In this document: positions 354 to 8,132 of the stretch, one piece after another | Numbering within the stretch: position 1 is the first letter of the stretch | Layout: each line of letters opens with the position of its first letter | Assembly: GCA_016200125.1 (NCBI GenBank) | Contig: JACQFK010000227.1 | Span: 1 to 9,395 of the forward strand | Source of the DNA: Planctomycetota bacterium | GTDB taxonomy: Bacteria > Planctomycetota > MHYJ01 > JACPRB01 | Reading direction: 5' to 3' | Length of the DNA: 9,395 nucleotides | The notes under the pieces: generated by a model | Seen by the model: only the letters and a program-made list of their open reading frames with translations | Database searches by the model: none | Told to the model about the DNA's origin: nothing | Program-made: the position numbers and the translations under genes

Positions 354-368
354 TGGCACGCGACTTGC
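354..368 (+). promoter_or_regulatory. Sigma-54 (RpoN) promoter upstream of the unusual tRNA
   Basis: TGGCACG (354-360), four bases, TTGC (365-368). This matches every core base and the spacing of the sigma-54 consensus TGGCACG-N4-TTGCW except the last W, which is G. The conserved GG is at 355-356 and GC at 367-368, so transcription should begin near 380, about 6 nt before the tRNA body at 386. No convincing sigma-70 promoter was seen close upstream of the tRNA. The paired palindromes upstream supply the activator site a sigma-54 promoter needs. Confidence 0.6.
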
Positions 369-385
369 GTCTTCGCAACGCGGTC

Positions 386-472
386 GGCGGGTGCTGCGCG
401 TGAGGGCACGCGCCCGGGTTGAGAAGCCGGAGGCCGCGAGAGCGGCCCGAGGTTCGAGTCCTCCGTCCGCCG
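386..472 (+). tRNA. Unusual tRNA, 8/4 acceptor branch, anticodon GAG
   Basis: The fold, read base by base, is as follows. Acceptor 386-393 with 464-471 is 8 bp, two of them G-U. The D-stem 397-402 with 407-412 is 6 bp with a 4-nt loop AGGG. The anticodon stem 414-418 with 426-430 is 4 bp plus one G-G mismatch, with loop UUGAGAA. The variable arm 432-437 with 442-447 is 6 bp with loop GAGA. The T-stem 449-452 with 460-463 is only 4 bp, with canonical loop TTCGAGT; the B-box GGTTCGAGTCC is perfect. A 7/5 fold leaves a C-C mismatch in the T-stem and five unplaced bases after the D-arm. Discriminator 472 is G, as in bacterial tRNA-Ser and tRNA-Sec; bacterial tRNA-Leu normally has A73. The anticodon would read CUC/CUU leucine codons. 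CCA is not encoded in this reading. If 385-472 pairs as a ninth acceptor base pair, the discriminator becomes C473 and CCA is encoded at 474-476. This resembles the 8/4 allo-tRNAs reported from acidobacteria and metagenomes. A decayed tRNA is possible. Confidence 0.7.
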
Positions 473-491
473 CCCATTGAAACGGCGCGGC

Positions 492-520
492 TTGACTTCG
501 CTGTGCGGCGGAGCTAGGTT
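492..520 (+). promoter_or_regulatory. Possible sigma-70 promoter between tRNA and PC4-like gene
   Basis: TTGACT (492-497), a 17-bp spacer, then TAGGTT (515-520). The -35 has one mismatch to consensus and the -10 is weaker. The start would be near 527, just before the segment complementary to the tRNA anticodon loop. It could drive a short RNA ending at the terminator at 572-596, or the PC4-like gene at 616 by read-through. Confidence 0.4.
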
Positions 521-526
521 GGGGTC

Positions 527-596
527 ACGGCTTCTCACGCTGGGCGCACTTGGCGCGGCACCTGAGAAAGACCCCGGCGACCGCGCCGGGGTTTTT
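527..596 (+). ncRNA. Candidate small RNA or attenuator leader with anti-anticodon segment
   Basis: This is the stretch between the predicted start near 527 and the intrinsic terminator. Bases 528-537 (CGGCTTCTCA) are the exact reverse complement of 420-429 in the tRNA, covering the anticodon, the 3' half of the loop and four bases of stem. Within the RNA, 532-537 can instead pair with 563-568 (TGAGAA). A further pairing, 518-526 with 570-578 (9 bp, two G-U), would block most of the terminator's 5' arm, but only in transcripts that start further upstream. No known RNA family is recognised. It may be a free RNA of about 70 nt with its pairing segment at the 5' end, or the leader of the gene at 616. 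Confidence 0.35.
571..596 (+). terminator. Strong intrinsic terminator before the PC4-like gene
   Basis: CCCCGGCG (572-579), loop ACCG, CGCCGGGG (584-591): 8 perfect base pairs, extended by A571-T592, followed by a run of five T (592-596). It ends transcripts coming from the tRNA and the 527 region. It lies only 19 nt upstream of the GTG at 616, so that gene needs read-through, attenuation control or an unseen start site. Confidence 0.85.
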
Positions 597-615: not shown

Positions 616-906
616 GTGGAGAAGACCAAGGCGACGAACAAGCCCATCAGCAAAGAAGTCCTGCGCGAGTTCCCGCCCCTGGGCAAGTACCGCGTGCGGC
701 TTGTGCGCAATCCCCGCCGTCCCGCCGAGGCTCCGACGCTCGACATCCGCGAGTACGTGAGCTCGGAGAACTTCGAGGGATTCACCCGCCGCGGGATCCG
801 GGTGGGGGACCGCGCCCAGATGGACCTGCTGCGCGACGTGCTGAAGGAGATCCTGGAGGCCGGCGGATTCGCGAAGCCCGCGCCGGGACTGCTGCCGGCG
901 CAGTAG
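616..906 (+). CDS. Small PC4-like (p15/Sub1-type) nucleic-acid-binding protein
   Basis: This 96-residue protein starts at GTG 616, preceded by GGAGG (605-609) with a 6-nt spacer; the open frame above it runs through the terminator and is not coding. It has a basic N-terminal tail (residues 1-20). Residues 24-80 match the PC4 transcriptional coactivator fold: a beta strand KYRVRLVRN, the signature LDIREYV (42-48), a turn with the family's glycine-isoleucine pair (RRGIRVG, 58-64), then a C-terminal helix MDLLRDVLKEIL. PC4-family proteins bind single-stranded DNA, and some bind RNA, as dimers; bacterial members are little studied. It is cytosolic, with no signal peptide or membrane segment. It lies directly downstream of the unusual tRNA and its terminator, so co-regulation with that RNA is plausible but unproven. 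Its TAG stop is 3 nt from the stop of the convergent TPR gene, with no terminator between them. Confidence 0.75.
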   Translation: MEKTKATNKPISKEVLREFPPLGKYRVRLVRNPRRPAEAPTLDIREYVSSENFEGFTRRGIRVGDRAQMDLLRDVLKEILEAGGFAKPAPGLLPAQ

Positions 907-3166: not shown

Positions 3167-3215
3167 GTACAGGTAAGTGGACAATAAAGCTGGATTCGTA
3201 AGGGGGATTAGAATC

Positions 3216-4805
3216 ATGACGAGAGCGAAGGTCGGAGCGGGAATCCTTCTGCTGCTCTTCTCCCTGGGCGTGGGCGCGAACAGCGCTCCCCAGGAGAACG
3301 CCACGAAGCCGGGCGTCTGCGCCTCCATCGACGGCGCGGTGAAGGGCATCGCGGGCTACAAAGATCAGTCGCCGGTGGCCGAGGACGGCGAGTTCCTCCG
3401 CCGCGTGATGCTGGACCTGGTGGGGTATCCTCCCAATCTGGACCAGGTCAAGGCGTTCATGGCCGAGACAGCCCCGAACAAGCGCGTCGTCAAGATCGAC
3501 GAGCTGCTGGCTTCGGACGACTTCGCGGACCTCTGGGCCCGCCAGTTCGCCGAGGTCTACTTCGGCAACTACCACGAAGTCCCGATGGACACCATGCCGA
3601 AGCTGGGCAAGACCGCCAGCGCTCGGATCGTGGGCGACTTCCTCAAGTGGTTCAAGCTGAAGCTCAACAAGGACACGCCCTACACGGAAATCGTGTCCCA
3701 GATGCTGGACGCCCGCGGCACGGACGAGGGCGACCCCGCCATGGCGTACAAGCTGTCCTTCTACACGGGTGAAGGCCAGGCGATCGAGTTCTCGAACGGC
3801 GTCGCCCGGCACCTGCTGGGCATCCGCCTCGTGTGCGCGCGCTGCCACGACCATCCCTTCGACAAGTGGCGCGTCGAGGATTACTACGGCCTGGCCGACT
3901 TCGTCTATCGCCAGAAGGCCCGCGGCTACGGGAACGGCGGCGAGAAGGACAGCGTCGACCACGTCGAGCTGAAGTACGCCGACGACGGCGACATCATGAT
4001 GCCGACGATCAAGGGGAGCAAGGACGCCGAGGTCAAGCTGTCCCACGGCGGCGCGGCCGCCCCGAACTTCCTCTTCGGCGGCGCGGCCGGCAAGAACGAC
4101 GACCGCATGAAGGTCCTGGCGATGTTCATGACCAACAAGACCAACACGCAGCTGCCCCGGGCGCTGGTGAACCGCGTCTGGTACTGGCTGATGGGCCGCG
4201 GCATCGTCCACCCGGTGGACGACTTCAACCTGAAGAACAAGGCCCTCTCGCCCGCGCTGCTCGAGGCGCTGGTCCGGAGCACGATCGAGAGCAAGTACTC
4301 GATCAAGCACGTCGTCCGGGCGATCTGCAACTCGGACACCTATCAGCGCGCCTGCGGCAGCGACCAGCCGGTGACGAAGGTCACCTTCTCCCGCGCCAAC
4401 GTGAAGCAGCTCAACGGCGAGCAGCTTCTGAACTCGATCAAGGTCGCCTGCCTGGGCAAGCCCGAGCGCGCCACGGCGCAGACGATGGAAATGGTCGGGT
4501 CGCTCTACCCCGCCGGCGCGGTGTGGTGCGAGGTGACGCCGTTGCCCGGCAACGCCCGCCAGGCCCTCCTGCTGCGGAACAACACGCAGATCATGGGCTG
4601 GGTCAACGGGCCCATCCTCCAGAAGGTGAAGGCCACCGCCGGCTCGGATGAGGACAAGGTCAACGAGATGTTCCTGGCCGCCCTGTCCCGTCCGGCGACG
4701 GACTCCGAGAAGAAGCGCTACGGGGCCTTCGTCAAGAAGGGCTCGGGCTGGGAGGATGCGTACTGGACGCTCCTCAACTCGACCGAATTCGTCACCCGCC
4801 ATTGA
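3216..4805 (+). CDS. Exported DUF1549/DUF1553 domain protein
   Basis: This is 529 residues from ATG 3216, which has AGGGGG (3201-3206) 9 nt upstream; the longer frame from 3177 is rejected because ATG 3216 opens a good signal peptide (MTRAKVGAGILLLLFSLGVG). The DUF1549 domain starts near residue 56 with the typical FLRRVMLDLVGYPP and ends with the conserved block CARCHDHPFDKW (207-218), which includes a CxxCH haem-c-like motif. The DUF1553 domain starts near residue 305 and carries LPRALVNRVWYWLMGRGIVHPVDDF-type sequence and the TYQR motif. Family members in Planctomycetota are often longer and fused to an extra N-terminal cytochrome domain, which is absent here. It is exported to the periplasm or surface, and it almost always sits beside a DUF1501 gene, as here (57-nt gap, no terminator). 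The biochemical role is unknown. Confidence 0.9.
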   Translation: MTRAKVGAGILLLLFSLGVGANSAPQENATKPGVCASIDGAVKGIAGYKDQSPVAEDGEFLRRVMLDLVGYPPNLDQVKAFMAETAPNKRVVKIDELLASDDFADLWARQFAEVYFGNYHEVPMDTMPKLGKTASARIVGDFLKWFKLKLNKDTPYTEIVSQMLDARGTDEGDPAMAYKLSFYTGEGQAIEFSNGVARHLLGIRLVCARCHDHPFDKWRVEDYYGLADFVYRQKARGYGNGGEKDSVDHVELKYADDGDIMMPTIKGSKDAEVKLSHGGAAAPNFLFGGAAGKNDDRMKVLAMFMTNKTNTQLPRALVNRVWYWLMGRGIVHPVDDFNLKNKALSPALLEALVRSTIESKYSIKHVVRAICNSDTYQRACGSDQPVTKVTFSRANVKQLNGEQLLNSIKVACLGKPERATAQTMEMVGSLYPAGAVWCEVTPLPGNARQALLLRNNTQIMGWVNGPILQKVKATAGSDEDKVNEMFLAALSRPATDSEKKRYGAFVKKGSGWEDAYWTLLNSTEFVTRH

Positions 4806-4862
4806 TCGGCCTGTGTATTGTATATGACTGTGAAAATTGAAAGAAAGTTGGAGGGGAATAAG

Positions 4863-6158
4863 ATGGCGAACTGCGACAAGTGCGCACCTGGATTCAATCG
4901 CCGGAGCTTCCTGAAATTCAGTCTGGGAGCGGGCGCCGGCGTGGCGGCAGCGTCTCTGCCGCATCGACTCCTCGCGCAGCAGACCGAGGCGAAGCAGGCC
5001 TCGGGCCGCACCGCGAAGTCCGTGATCATGCTGTGGATGGGCGGCGGACCCACGCAGCTGGACACCTGGGATCCGAAGCCCGGGTCGAAGAACGGCGGCG
5101 AGTTCAAGGCCATTCCGACGACCGGCGGCAGCAACATGATGTTCTCCGAGCACATGAAGGTCTGCGCTTCGCAGGGCAAGAACATGACCATCGTCCGCTC
5201 GATGAACACGCACGAGGGCGCGCACGAGCGCGGTACCTCGCTCATGCACATCGGCATCCAGCCCGTCCAGGGCCTCGAAATCCCGCCCACGGGCACGGTC
5301 GTGTCGTACGAGAAGGGCAAGAAGGACTTCCCCCTGCCCCACTTCATCGCGATCGATCCGCCGCTCATTCCGCAGGCGTCGACCTTCGGCGATGACTACA
5401 TGCCCTTCCGCCTGAACAACGCCGAGAACCCCATCCCGAACATCCGCCGGAACGTGGATGCCAGCCGGGACAAGGAGCGCGCCGCCCTCCTCCTCGACCA
5501 GAACAAGGAGTGGGACAGCAAGCGCCAGCAGAAGGAAGTCTCAAAGGTCGAGGCGGCCTATGTGAAGTCCGAGGACGTGATGAACACGCCCCTCCTGAAG
5601 GCCTTCAACTACCACGAAGAGTCCGCCGATCTCCGCAAGGAATACGGCGACCGCTTCGGCATCAACTGCCTCCTGGCCCGCCGTCTCGTCCAGGCCGGAT
5701 GCTCGTTCATCGAGATCGGCATGGGCGGCTGGGACATGCACGCCGACGTGTTCTGCAACTGCAAGCGCATGCTCCCCACGCTCGACGCCGGCATGGGCAC
5801 CCTGATCAAGGACCTGGCCGAGAAGGACCTCCTCAAGGAGACGCTGGTCATCTGGGCCGGCGAGTTCGGCCGGACGCCCAGCATCAACGCGGGCAAGGGC
5901 CGCGATCACCACGCCGATGGCTTCACGGTGGCCATGGCGGGCGGCGGCTTCGCGGGCGGGCGCGTGTACGGCAACACCGGCCCCAACGGCGACCAGTGCA
6001 TGCAGCCGGTGCCCATCCACAACCTGTTCGCGTCGATCTACGCCGCGTGCGGCATCGACGGCAACAAGAAGTACGAGACCGAAGGCCGGAAGATCAAGTA
6101 CGTCTCCCAGAACGGCTCGATCTCCACGAGCGGCACGGTCATCAAGGAGCTGTTCTAA
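4863..6158 (+). CDS. Tat-exported DUF1501 (alkaline-phosphatase-superfamily-like) protein
   Basis: This is 431 residues from ATG 4863, with an excellent ribosome-binding site GGAGGGG (4850-4856) 6 nt upstream; an in-frame TTG at 4818 lacks one. The N-terminus has CDKC (4-7), then a twin-arginine signal NRRSFLKF (12-19) and an Ala/Gly-rich hydrophobic stretch, so the folded protein is exported by Tat, which suits a metal-dependent enzyme. DUF1501 hallmarks follow in order: MLWMGGGPTQLDTWDPKPG, MNTHEGAHERG, GWDMHAD, GEFGRTP (333-339) and GRDHH (346-350). DUF1501 belongs to the alkaline phosphatase/sulfatase clan; the His and Asp in these motifs are probable metal ligands. The substrate is unknown. 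It is co-transcribed with the DUF1549/DUF1553 gene and closed by the terminator at 6176-6213. Confidence 0.92.
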   Translation: MANCDKCAPGFNRRSFLKFSLGAGAGVAAASLPHRLLAQQTEAKQASGRTAKSVIMLWMGGGPTQLDTWDPKPGSKNGGEFKAIPTTGGSNMMFSEHMKVCASQGKNMTIVRSMNTHEGAHERGTSLMHIGIQPVQGLEIPPTGTVVSYEKGKKDFPLPHFIAIDPPLIPQASTFGDDYMPFRLNNAENPIPNIRRNVDASRDKERAALLLDQNKEWDSKRQQKEVSKVEAAYVKSEDVMNTPLLKAFNYHEESADLRKEYGDRFGINCLLARRLVQAGCSFIEIGMGGWDMHADVFCNCKRMLPTLDAGMGTLIKDLAEKDLLKETLVIWAGEFGRTPSINAGKGRDHHADGFTVAMAGGGFAGGRVYGNTGPNGDQCMQPVPIHNLFASIYAACGIDGNKKYETEGRKIKYVSQNGSISTSGTVIKELF

Positions 6159-6283: not shown

Positions 6284-8132
6284 ATGAAAACACTCGCCCC
6301 CTTGCTCCTTTGCCTGCTCCCCCTCGCCTCCCAGGAGGGCCGCCCCGCGTCCCCGCCGCTCCCGGACGCCAAAGAACAGCTGGCGCTGGGCCTGGCGGTC
6401 AGCTTCGAAGGCGGCGGCCTCCAGGACGTCCGCGACGCCCGCCTCGCGGCCCTCTACGTGCCGGAAGGGACCCCGCCCTCCCCCTTCCTCTCCCCCGGCC
6501 CTTTCAAGGCGACCTGGGAGGGCTTCGTCAGCGTCGACCTGGGCACCGACGTCAGCTTCAGCGCGGTCGGAAACGGCTCGATCACCGTCACCGCCGCCGA
6601 CAAGCCCGCCCTCACGGCGAAGGGCGACCTCTCGACCGTCGAAGGCCCCTCCCTGCGCCTCCGCAAGGGCCGCAACAAGTTGGTCGTAAAGTACGAGAGC
6701 CCCGCGAAAGGCGACGCCTTCGTCCGCCTCTATTGGGCGTCGAGCGACTTCACGCGCGAGCCCGTGCCGCCGCTGGTGCTCAGCCACAACGTGAACGCGA
6801 CGCCGGTCCGGACCCAGCGCCGGATCCGCGAGGGACGCGAGCTTGTCGCCATGCGCCGCTGCCTGAAGTGCCACACGGGCGACTTCAAGGGCATGCCGGA
6901 ACTCGAGATGGACGCCCCCTCGCTGGCCGAGGCCGGCGCCCGGCTGCACCCCGACTGGATCGCCCGCTGGATCCTCAATCCGCGCGAGCTCCGCCCCGAA
7001 GCCACCATGCCCAGGCTTCCCGGCGTCCAGCCCCAGGATGCCGCGGACATGGCCGCCTACCTGGCGACGCTCGGGAAGCCGGAGCCCAACCCCGCCGCCC
7101 CCGCGGATGCGTCCAAGCTCGGCGGCCACCTCTTCGCCGAGATGCGCTGCATCGGCTGCCACACGCTCCCCGACAGGGAGCCGGCGCCCGACCGCATCCC
7201 CTTCAGCTTCGTAAAGGCCAAATGGAAACCGGCGGCGCTCAAGAAATTCCTCCTCGGCCCCGAGAGCCACTACACGTGGATCGAGATGCCGAACTTCCGC
7301 CTGAAGGACGAGGAGGCCGGCAAGGGCGGGCGGCTGCAAGGGCGCCGATTTCGGCTTCAGCCCGGCCCAGAGCGGGGCGGTCGCCGCCTTCGCGGCCACC
7401 GATCTCGCCTCCCTCGGCCGGGAGGCCCTGCCCGAGTTCGCTGGGCGGCAGTTCCTCGCGCTGCGCTGCTTCGCCTGCCACCGGCGGGACGACCGGCTGG
7501 ACGCCTGGGCCGATCTCGCGTCCGAGACCCGGGAGCTGGAGCCGCCCAAGAAGGTCGACGACGGCGAGTTCGCGGTGATCGCGCCGGCGGAGCCCTGGTT
7601 CCCCTCGCTCACCTGGATCGGCGAAAAGCTCAAGCCCGAGTGGGCGGTCGCGTTCCTGAAGGGGGAGATCGCCGAGCGGCCCCGCCCCTTCCTGAAGAAC
7701 CTGCGGATGCCCTCGTTCCCGTCGCGCGCCGAACGCCTGGTCCAGGGGCTGTCGCTCGAACACGGCTACCCGGCCTCGAGCGCGCCCGAGCCCGCGCCGA
7801 ACCCCGAGATGTCCGGCCTGGGACGCAAGCTCTCCGGTCCCTCGGGCGGGCTCGACTGCCTGTCCTGCCACGCGATCGGCCCCAAGGGCGCGACCAAGGT
7901 CTTCGAGGCGCCCGCGCCGAACTTCAAGCTGTCGAAGGCGCGTCTCCGGAAGGACTATTACGACCGCTGGGTCCGCGAGCCGCTCCGCCTCGAGCCGGGG
8001 ACGAAGATGCCGCAGTTCATCAAGGACGGCCGGACGCAGCTCACGGAGATCCTGGAGGGCGACGGCGTGAAGCAGGCCGACGCCCTCTGGCAGTACCTGC
8101 TCGAGGGCGACCAGATCCGCCCCCCGGAATGA
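6284..8132 (+). CDS. Exported PA14-like, tetrahaem c-type cytochrome (frameshifted)
   Basis: The intended product is about 615 residues. It starts at ATG 6284 with a signal peptide (MKTLAPLLLCLLPLAS). Residues about 60-165 resemble a PA14 carbohydrate-binding-type beta domain (FKATWEGFVSVDLGTDVSF and RKGRNKLVVKYE, ending in VRLYW). Four CxxCH haem-attachment motifs follow: CLKCH (from 6860), CIGCH (7148), CFACH (7467) and CLSCH (7857). The first two are in one frame and the last two in the next (+1), so the frame must change between about 7318 and 7334. Removing one G from the GGG at 7324-7326 joins them smoothly. Methionines in EATMPRL and GTKMPQF are likely distal haem ligands. Cytochromes of this type act in periplasmic electron transfer; the partner is unknown. 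TGA 8130-8132 overlaps the next start as ATGA, so the two genes are translationally coupled. Confidence 0.82.
7318..7334 (+). other. +1 frameshift site in the cytochrome gene
   Basis: Before this point good coding sequence (MPNFRLKDEEAGK) is in the frame of 6284. After it, good sequence (CKGADFGFSPAQSGAVAAF) is one base later. The region is a run of G triplets (AAGGGCGGGCGG), where an extra G is an easy sequencing or replication slip. Nothing here looks like a known programmed +1 frameshift signal. Confidence 0.8.

Follow-up and report, generated by a model that had tools for sequence, protein, structure and literature searches.

The window, by which we mean the whole 9,395-nt stretch of DNA analysed, carries a tRNA gene that lies between a predicted sigma54-type promoter with twin palindromes and a predicted small antisense transcription unit, followed by a gene for a 96-residue protein. 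The features of this locus are:

275–291, no strand assigned: first (upstream) palindrome, CGTTACTTAAAGTAACG, of a predicted twin enhancer site for a bEBP, exact match to CGTTACNNNNNGTAACG
295–311, no strand assigned: palindrome CGTTACGTAAAGTAACG, downstream twin copy, 20 bp from the first, exact match to CGTTACNNNNNGTAACG
354–368, plus strand: predicted sigma54 −24/−12 promoter TGGCACGCGACTTGC, exact match to TGGCACNNNNNTTGC
386–472, plus strand: 8/4 allo-tRNA with G73 (covariance model, MFE fold and covariation)
386–393/464–471, plus strand: tRNA acceptor stem, 8 bp (sequence and MFE fold)
396–413, plus strand: tRNA D-arm, 6–7 bp with the 4-nt loop AGGG (sequence and MFE fold)
414–430, plus strand: tRNA anticodon arm, anticodon GAG at 421–423
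432–447, plus strand: tRNA variable arm, 6 bp with a GAGA loop (sequence and MFE fold)
449–463, plus strand: tRNA T-arm, 4-bp T-stem with T-loop UUCGAGU (sequence and MFE fold)
492–520, plus strand: predicted sigma70-type promoter, TTGACT (492–497), 17-nt spacer, TAGGTT (515–520)
528–537, plus strand: antisense block CGGCTTCTCA, complement of TGAGAAGCCG at 420–429, the anticodon loop and 3′ stem
542–547, plus strand: antisense block GGGCGC, against 410–415
553–564, plus strand: antisense block GCGCGGCACCTG, against the acceptor/D-arm 5′ strand (388–399)
572–596, plus strand: predicted intrinsic terminator of the antisense RNA, CCCCGGCG/CGCCGGGG then T5 (no shuffle control)
616–906, plus strand: 96-residue protein, weakly PC4/PUR-like, a single-stranded-DNA-binding fold (AlphaFold model and fold search)

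The window also encodes proteins of the PSCyt2/PSD1, DUF1501, cytochrome c and DUF885 families. The PSCyt2/PSD1 and DUF1501 genes form a pair at 3213–6155, an arrangement typical of Planctomycetota, and the named matches among the 120 listed for the DUF1501 protein are one Gemmatimonadales and one Planctomycetota MAG at 48–49% identity. A TPR gene on the minus strand (910–2805) has an in-frame TAG at 2203–2205, with both pieces matching TPR families, and a cytochrome c gene (6284–8132) seems to change frame near 7330–7350, which may be a contig error. The 96-residue protein has 198 homologues, the two named among the 120 listed being from Planctomycetota MAGs, and gave no Pfam match and no meaningful PDB sequence match. 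We regard an uncultured member of Planctomycetota as the origin of the window. Its AlphaFold model (pLDDT 69.7) has four strands and one helix, and the first twelve PDB matches in a fold search are PURA, PC4 and Sub1 at E values of 0.05–0.9, none at 0.001, which is suggestive of a PC4/PUR-like fold.

ARAGORN finds no tRNA in the whole 9,395-base window. A covariance model (R1) built only from three related loci (L104, L105 and L107), with the window left out, scores the tRNA at 40.9 bits (E 8.8e-8), and the MFE fold is matched by 0 of 200 shuffles (z −2.49). The tRNA at 386–472 is real and its 8/4 fold lies beyond chance. Sequence and MFE fold agree on the 8-bp acceptor stem, 4-bp T-stem, D-arm with 4-nt loop and 6-bp variable arm described in the original prediction, which had also read the discriminator (G at 472) and the anticodon (GAG) correctly. 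The anticodon stem has just four clean base pairs with a G·G opposition at its top, C-1 could pair with G73, and the acceptor stem begins with GGCG where relatives usually have GGAG. That the gene encodes no CCA does not count against it, because most of the tRNAs listed for the related Planctomycetota genome G313 also seem, by eye, to lack one. A plasmid search with positions 380–480 gave no match.

The arms had been likened to those of tRNA-Sec. This likeness holds for the long acceptor stem, the 4-nt D-loop and the long variable arm, but not for the anticodon, which is not UCA, nor for the score, because the Rfam tRNA-Sec model (RF01852) gives the window 35.9 bits, under its cut-off of 47. 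The same model returns 7 to 20 matches in each of 20 other genomes, many in the window's score range and presumably ordinary long-arm tRNAs, so that ‘Sec-like’ by score alone says little. These 20 genomes were taken from the best 80 of 591 confirmed loci in an alignment-based relative scan, the best identity among these 80 being 40%; a first relative scan with the DUF1501 protein had found nothing. The GAG anticodon and the score below cut-off rule out tRNA-Sec.

Model R1 also recovers two other loci, L101 (36.3 bits) and L133 (63.5 bits), and its matches in four of six genomes add further members from G313, G180 and G207. A second model (R2), built from nine R1-stage sequences including the window, matched the same four among 23 genomes of the class. 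Among 247 genomes around an Acidobacteriota centre, strict filters left two with a match. Of 41 relatives of one of these two, 15 had matches, at 25 places in all, and the model also matched 23 of 392 Planctomycetota genomes. Twenty-five further Planctomycetota loci (L245–L269) contain 40 distinct R2 matches, 36 with serine anticodons and four with non-serine ones; the 8/4-like tRNAs with serine anticodons often stand several in a row, suggesting that 8/4 serine tRNAs are not rare in Planctomycetota.

The 8/4 branch was compared with the ordinary 7/5 alternative across 35 loci (37 rows minus two duplicates). Pair 8 of the acceptor stem is a standard one in 33 of the 35 (G-C 19, A-U 13, G-U 1), whereas the fifth T-stem pair that a 7/5 fold would need is standard in just five; this G-C/A-U exchange at pair 8 against a failing 7/5 pair is the plainest evidence for 8/4. 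The compensatory changes that had been sought in homologues are present, with double changes at 18 of 30 pairs in nine sequences (reached by 0 of 500 shuffles) and at 27 of 30 pairs in 33 distinct rows (covariation score reached by 0 of 500 shuffles), although the fitting of both alignments to the model structure biases them towards 8/4, and kinship can also beat such shuffles. Because many of the Acidobacteriota loci are close kin, the counts overstate the number of independent events. Covariation, together with G73 as against the A73 of both listed G313 tRNA-Leu, rules out an ordinary 7/5 tRNA-Leu.

Judged by sequence (a covarying 8/4 branch, G73, a long variable arm, a non-serine anticodon and its relatives), the tRNA is a member of the known 8/4 allo-tRNA class, as had been proposed. 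Anticodons at the related loci include GAG, GAC, CAC, GUC, GCG, GCC and UUC. G73 is found in 25 of the 35 loci, the window among them, loop position 33 is U in 29 and C in six, and position 37 is a purine in all 35. In the available text of PMC7609411, allo-tRNAs are placed in Clostridia, Proteobacteria and Acidobacteria, the 8/4 and 9/3 types after Mukai et al. 2017. The same text has 8/4 and 9/3 allo-tRNAs of Silvibacterium bohemicum put serine at CUC and UUA in E. coli, so a CUC-reading allo-tRNA is apparently already known, and it describes UAU-type and other irregular allo-tRNAs as not used in E. coli translation.

Serine charging is predicted for the window tRNA from G73 and the long variable arm, and the GGCG start weakens this prediction. 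Two of the three listed G313 tRNA-Ser have G73 and a GGAG start, like most allo-tRNAs, and the third has A73; the GGCG start and that single A73 make serine charging less sure here than for the relatives. An RNA of tRNA shape that serves in regulation and is never aminoacylated would account for the C-1:G73 pair that appears possible by eye in the window, L101, L104, L105 and L107, for the weakened anticodon stem of the window and C33 at six loci, and would agree with the E. coli result for UAU-type and irregular allo-tRNAs in the available text of PMC7609411. We give this reading a low probability, since the T-arm is conserved, U33, purine 37 and G73 prevail, the S. bohemicum allo-tRNAs insert serine (PMC7609411, available text) and the UAU types lack the antisense described below.

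A predicted promoter–antisense–terminator unit adjoins the tRNA downstream, its antisense and terminator part spanning 528–596 and the predicted RNA about 527–597. The promoter at 492–520 is the top site in the 200 nt downstream under our own weights, and 0 of 40 shuffles score as high. The 10-nt complement to the anticodon arm has an equally long run in 1 of 300 shuffles, and the block against tRNA positions 3–14 is reached by 0 of 200. The predicted duplex of tRNA positions 1–45 with the small RNA has an energy of −63.2 kcal/mol (100 shuffles: mean −37.7, lowest −48.3), a comparison biased in its favour because the small-RNA stretches for duplex tests were picked by complementarity. With the whole tRNA the value is −69.7, and the best of 59 ordinary tRNAs, mostly from other genomes, reaches −49.2.

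The same arrangement recurs among relatives. An exact complement of at least 8 nt lies downstream in 23 of 35 loci and upstream in two. Runs of this length occur in 23 of 33 cognate pairs, but swapped pairs have them in only 28 of 954 cases and ordinary tRNAs in 3 of 56. Among the 8/4-like tRNAs of the further Planctomycetota loci such runs accompany 3 of the 36 with serine anticodons and one of the four without. When G·U pairs are allowed, the whole anticodon is covered in 26 of 26 scored loci, the window included; three of these need the G·U pairs, G·U runs carry no shuffle control and the start of L137 was set by hand. The scored loci are those with at least 150 nt downstream and anticodons other than UAU, CCA or GAA (that is, GAG, GAC, CAC, GUC, GCG, GCC or UUC), and L137, L144 and L188:1501 were kept despite exact runs below 8 nt, since G·U pairs lengthen them. 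Nine loci went unscored: five UAU, one CCA and one GAA locus for insufficient complementarity, and L141 and L101, whose downstream sequence ends at 58 nt and 128 nt respectively.

No antisense over the anticodon was found at the seven UAU, CCA and GAA loci, and none in the 128 nt downstream of L101, a GAG tRNA with a sigma54 box. The lack of antisense beside the five UAU allo-tRNAs (L145, L146, L190, L191 and L193) fits the statement, in the available text of PMC7609411, that UAU types go unused in E. coli translation. A search of viral contigs with one exact Acidobacteriota-type pattern gave no match.

Duplexes with the tRNA 5′ half lie below all 100 shuffles in 24 of the 26 scored loci, the exceptions being L140 and L188:1501. 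The second antisense block taken alone reaches p < 0.05 in just two of the 26, the window (0 of 200 shuffles) and L185 (0.04), and we therefore claim it for the window only. Promoters and terminators were counted only in the 23 loci with exact runs of at least 8 nt. In all 23, the top sigma70-like site within 200 nt ends 4–12 nt before the antisense; it is matched by at most 1 of 40 shuffles in 18 loci and by 3 to 18 in the other five (L185 18, L182 10, L180 5, L195 5, L189 3). A terminator-like hairpin follows the antisense in 21 of the 23 (no shuffle control was made for terminators), and the predicted small RNAs are about 45–75 nt long. Taken together, allo-tRNA/antisense pairs whose complementarity is matched to the anticodon are found, by sequence, in both Planctomycetota and Acidobacteriota.

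Duplex energies are also at p < 0.05 in the upstream flanks of 7 of 35 loci, so some leaders may carry antisense too. Anticodon-arm pairing beats shuffles in the upstream flanks of L179, L185, L187, L188, L189, L193 and L195, and the leaders of L137 and L138 contain, by eye, partial antisense to the anticodon arm. In G313, an ordinary-looking tRNA-Gly (GCC; L164, contig C120) is followed downstream by 14 nt complementary to its anticodon arm. It also has a second block, GAGCTACGGG, directed at the tRNA 5′ end, and a hairpin that resembles a terminator.

The antisense could also act in cis. The tRNA and the antisense would then share a single transcript, whose 3′ part folds onto the 5′ half of the tRNA and serves as an attenuator or as a switch in processing, perhaps gating the PC4-like gene as well. 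The tRNA and antisense are on the same strand with no terminator noticed by eye between them, and the terminator lies some 20 nt ahead of the gene start at 616, as such a switch would have it. We consider this unlikely, because the best sigma70-like site stands just ahead of the antisense in 23 of 23 loci and because a same-strand gene after the terminator was not noticed, by eye, as a rule elsewhere, the exceptions being L147 and its kin, which stand before hemC-like genes.

The polarity could instead be reversed, so that the small RNA is an effector that sequesters tRNAs and the tandem tRNA a decoy. CreT toxins sequester tRNAs in this way (PMC8501985, available text), and the antisense beside the G313 tRNA-Gly (GCC) would agree with such a role. 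This seems to us quite improbable: in 21 of 26 loci, among them the window (−69.7 against −49.2), none of the 59 ordinary tRNAs forms as strong a duplex as the cognate tRNA, and complementarity extends into the allo-tRNA arms, although at five of the 26 loci the duplex energy of the small RNA with some ordinary tRNA from a different genome equals or betters the cognate value.

Upstream, the predicted sigma54 box lies 17 nt before the tRNA, with the twin palindromes (CGTTAC-N5-GTAACG) above it. The pattern TGGCACNNNNNTTGC, which we take to be the sigma54 −24/−12 consensus, has this sole match in the window when one mismatch is allowed, a tolerance at which chance would give 0.36 matches; the box alone is therefore no proof, and its weight comes from its place and its recurrence. 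With transcription predicted to begin near 380, the tRNA would have about six bases of leader ahead of it. For the palindromes, three matches at up to two mismatches are reached in 0 of 200 shuffles.

A combined sigma54-box and T-arm pattern matched one of 294 Planctomycetota genomes (G299; reversed-pattern control 0), at locus L101, a GAG allo-tRNA with a sigma54 box and one palindrome of the window's kind. At one mismatch it matched 4 of 59 relatives of G299 in seven places (the control gave one match), namely three G313 allo-tRNAs, L101, L102, L103 and L106, which lies at the recA promoter of G299. This recA is preceded by a twin site and a box. The twin site at up to one mismatch occurs in three genomes among 40 relatives of G313 (reversed-pattern control 0). 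G313 itself has 12 twin sites; one more, whose first palindrome is degenerate, stands before the tRNA on contig C216 and brings the number to 13.

A sigma54-type box was recognized, by regular expression or by eye, at 11 of the 13 G313 sites. The boxed sites precede five allo-tRNAs (four and that on C216), recA, radC and genes for an SbcD-like phosphoesterase, a PLD-like protein, a DNA methylase and a homologue of the PC4-like protein; Pfam matches among the site-bearing genes are RecA, RadC, Metallophos, PLDc_2 and N6_N4_Mtase. The sites on contigs C28 and C131 have no clear box, and their neighbours look by eye like glycosyltransferases. Because the G313 homologue of the 96-residue protein has its own twin palindromes and sigma54-type box, the gene in the window looks like a member of the same regulon. 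With a close box and sites shared with this regulon, the window tRNA looks, as far as its sequence goes, like a sigma54-dependent gene.

From the genes that carry these sites we infer a DNA-damage regulon. LexA-type matches above the cut-off are present in four of eight genomes, including G299 and excluding G313. Damage control of allo-tRNAs is not general, because the sigma54 box and palindromes are seen in the window, G313 and G299 only; by eye, no such control was seen at the G180, G207 and Acidobacteriota loci, and G081 has a tandem palindrome array with no box seen. Upstream flanks of Acidobacteriota allo-tRNAs (L176, L182 and L188 among them) share, by eye, the motifs CGGGAAC or CGAATTGGG-like together with TAGAAT, a hint of another regulator. 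In G313 a predicted enhancer-binding protein (L214; FHA-GAF-AAA-HTH by eye) is encoded upstream of recA and its twin palindromes (contig C124, L214 and L124). It stays a candidate regulator, because no match was found on the recA contig of G299. RtcR and RNA repair were dropped as the regulatory context in view of the genes that follow the sites, recA, radC and SbcD-like ones.

If the tRNA were simply a missense suppressor or a leucine back-up, with promoter and antisense there by coincidence, the GAG anticodon and the departure of GGCG from the relatives' GGAG would fit. G73 in place of A73 and the controls for palindromes, antisense and promoter-like sites disfavour this reading, and we regard it as very improbable.

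CUC and CUU account for 126 (118 and 8) of 2,175 codons in seven coding stretches of the window. A free serine-charged tRNA would therefore touch most proteins, and tight control is to be expected. The earlier suggestion that the tRNA puts serine at these common leucine codons is unlikely to describe a constant state, because the gene looks doubly restrained, by a predicted sigma54/enhancer promoter and a predicted dedicated antisense RNA.

The reading that we prefer, and consider somewhat probable, is an inducible missense tRNA held back by its own antisense RNA in the manner of a type I toxin–antitoxin system. The anatomy of the module (fold, cis-sites and complementarity) is strong, and its function is inferred. 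The first RNA (386–472) would be an allo-tRNA with serine-type features that reads CUC and CUU. Stress, probably in the form of DNA damage, would lead an enhancer-binding protein bound at the twin palindromes to activate sigma54 RNA polymerase, and the tRNA would be made in bulk. The second RNA (about 527–597) would be made constantly from its own predicted sigma70 promoter and, by pairing with the anticodon loop and a large part of the 5′ half of the tRNA, would bar leaked tRNA from translation. Once induction exceeds the second RNA, leucine codons would be misread by free serine-charged tRNA, and the outcome would be either a surge of mistranslation or an arrest of growth. In this scheme transcription by sigma54, induction by damage, steady synthesis of the antisense, anticodon masking, serine charging and misreading are all predictions.

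A broader form of the proposal is possible, though we hold it more tentatively. Here a missense tRNA would be the toxin of an RNA-only toxin–antitoxin system, a sigma54 damage regulon would free serine-charged tRNAs that rewrite leucine or valine codons, dedicated antisense RNAs would mask the anticodons in peace time, and such pairs would have been overlooked in at least two phyla.

Allo-tRNAs are already known; what appears to be new is the matched antisense RNAs and the sigma54/recA-linked tRNAs, of which we found no description. A prior description is possible, as most subscription papers and the primary allo-tRNA paper lay outside the scope of the search, in which ‘allo-tRNA’ co-occurs with ‘antisense’ only in one review of cell-free amino acid work. 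Among titles and abstract starts we found neither sigma54/recA- or SOS-linked control of a tRNA nor anti-tRNA RNAs of this kind. To the question how cells bear tRNAs that violate the code, a matched antisense RNA beside most allo-tRNAs would be a direct answer, and for the question what allo-tRNAs are for it would offer a test. If the damage link is true, some bacteria may switch on mistranslation within a sigma54-run DNA-damage response. Engineers of the genetic code would also find ready-made switches in these natural tRNA/anti-tRNA pairs.

Several known systems resemble parts of this module. With the 8/4 allo-tRNAs the window shares the 8/4 branch, serine-type elements and a non-serine anticodon; the available allo-tRNA account in PMC7609411 mentions neither ‘antisense’ nor ‘sigma’, whereas the window has both, as predictions. 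RtcR/sigma54 RNA repair operons likewise tie sigma54 enhancer control to tRNA biology in the available parts of PMC9879122 and PMC7790460; unlike those operons, the window has no rtc gene that we noticed, and the G313 sites precede recA and radC. CreTA is also an RNA-only module centred on tRNA function, in which, according to the available text of PMC8501985 and PMC9458426, the CreT small RNA sequesters tRNAs and CreA guides Cascade, whereas in the window the tRNA itself would be the regulated agent; no cas family was found among the nine window proteins scanned.

A parallel in logic is the tisB/istR-1 pair. This type I toxin–antitoxin system sets a damage-induced RNA, under LexA control, beside an adjoining constitutive small antisense RNA. 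The window has the same predicted layout of an induced RNA beside a constitutive small antisense RNA, but with a tRNA in place of the toxin mRNA, genes in tandem and sigma54-type control in place of LexA. Since the antisense complementarity is present and its partner is a tRNA, the module would, on its sequence, work like a type I toxin–antitoxin system and not be a member of that class.
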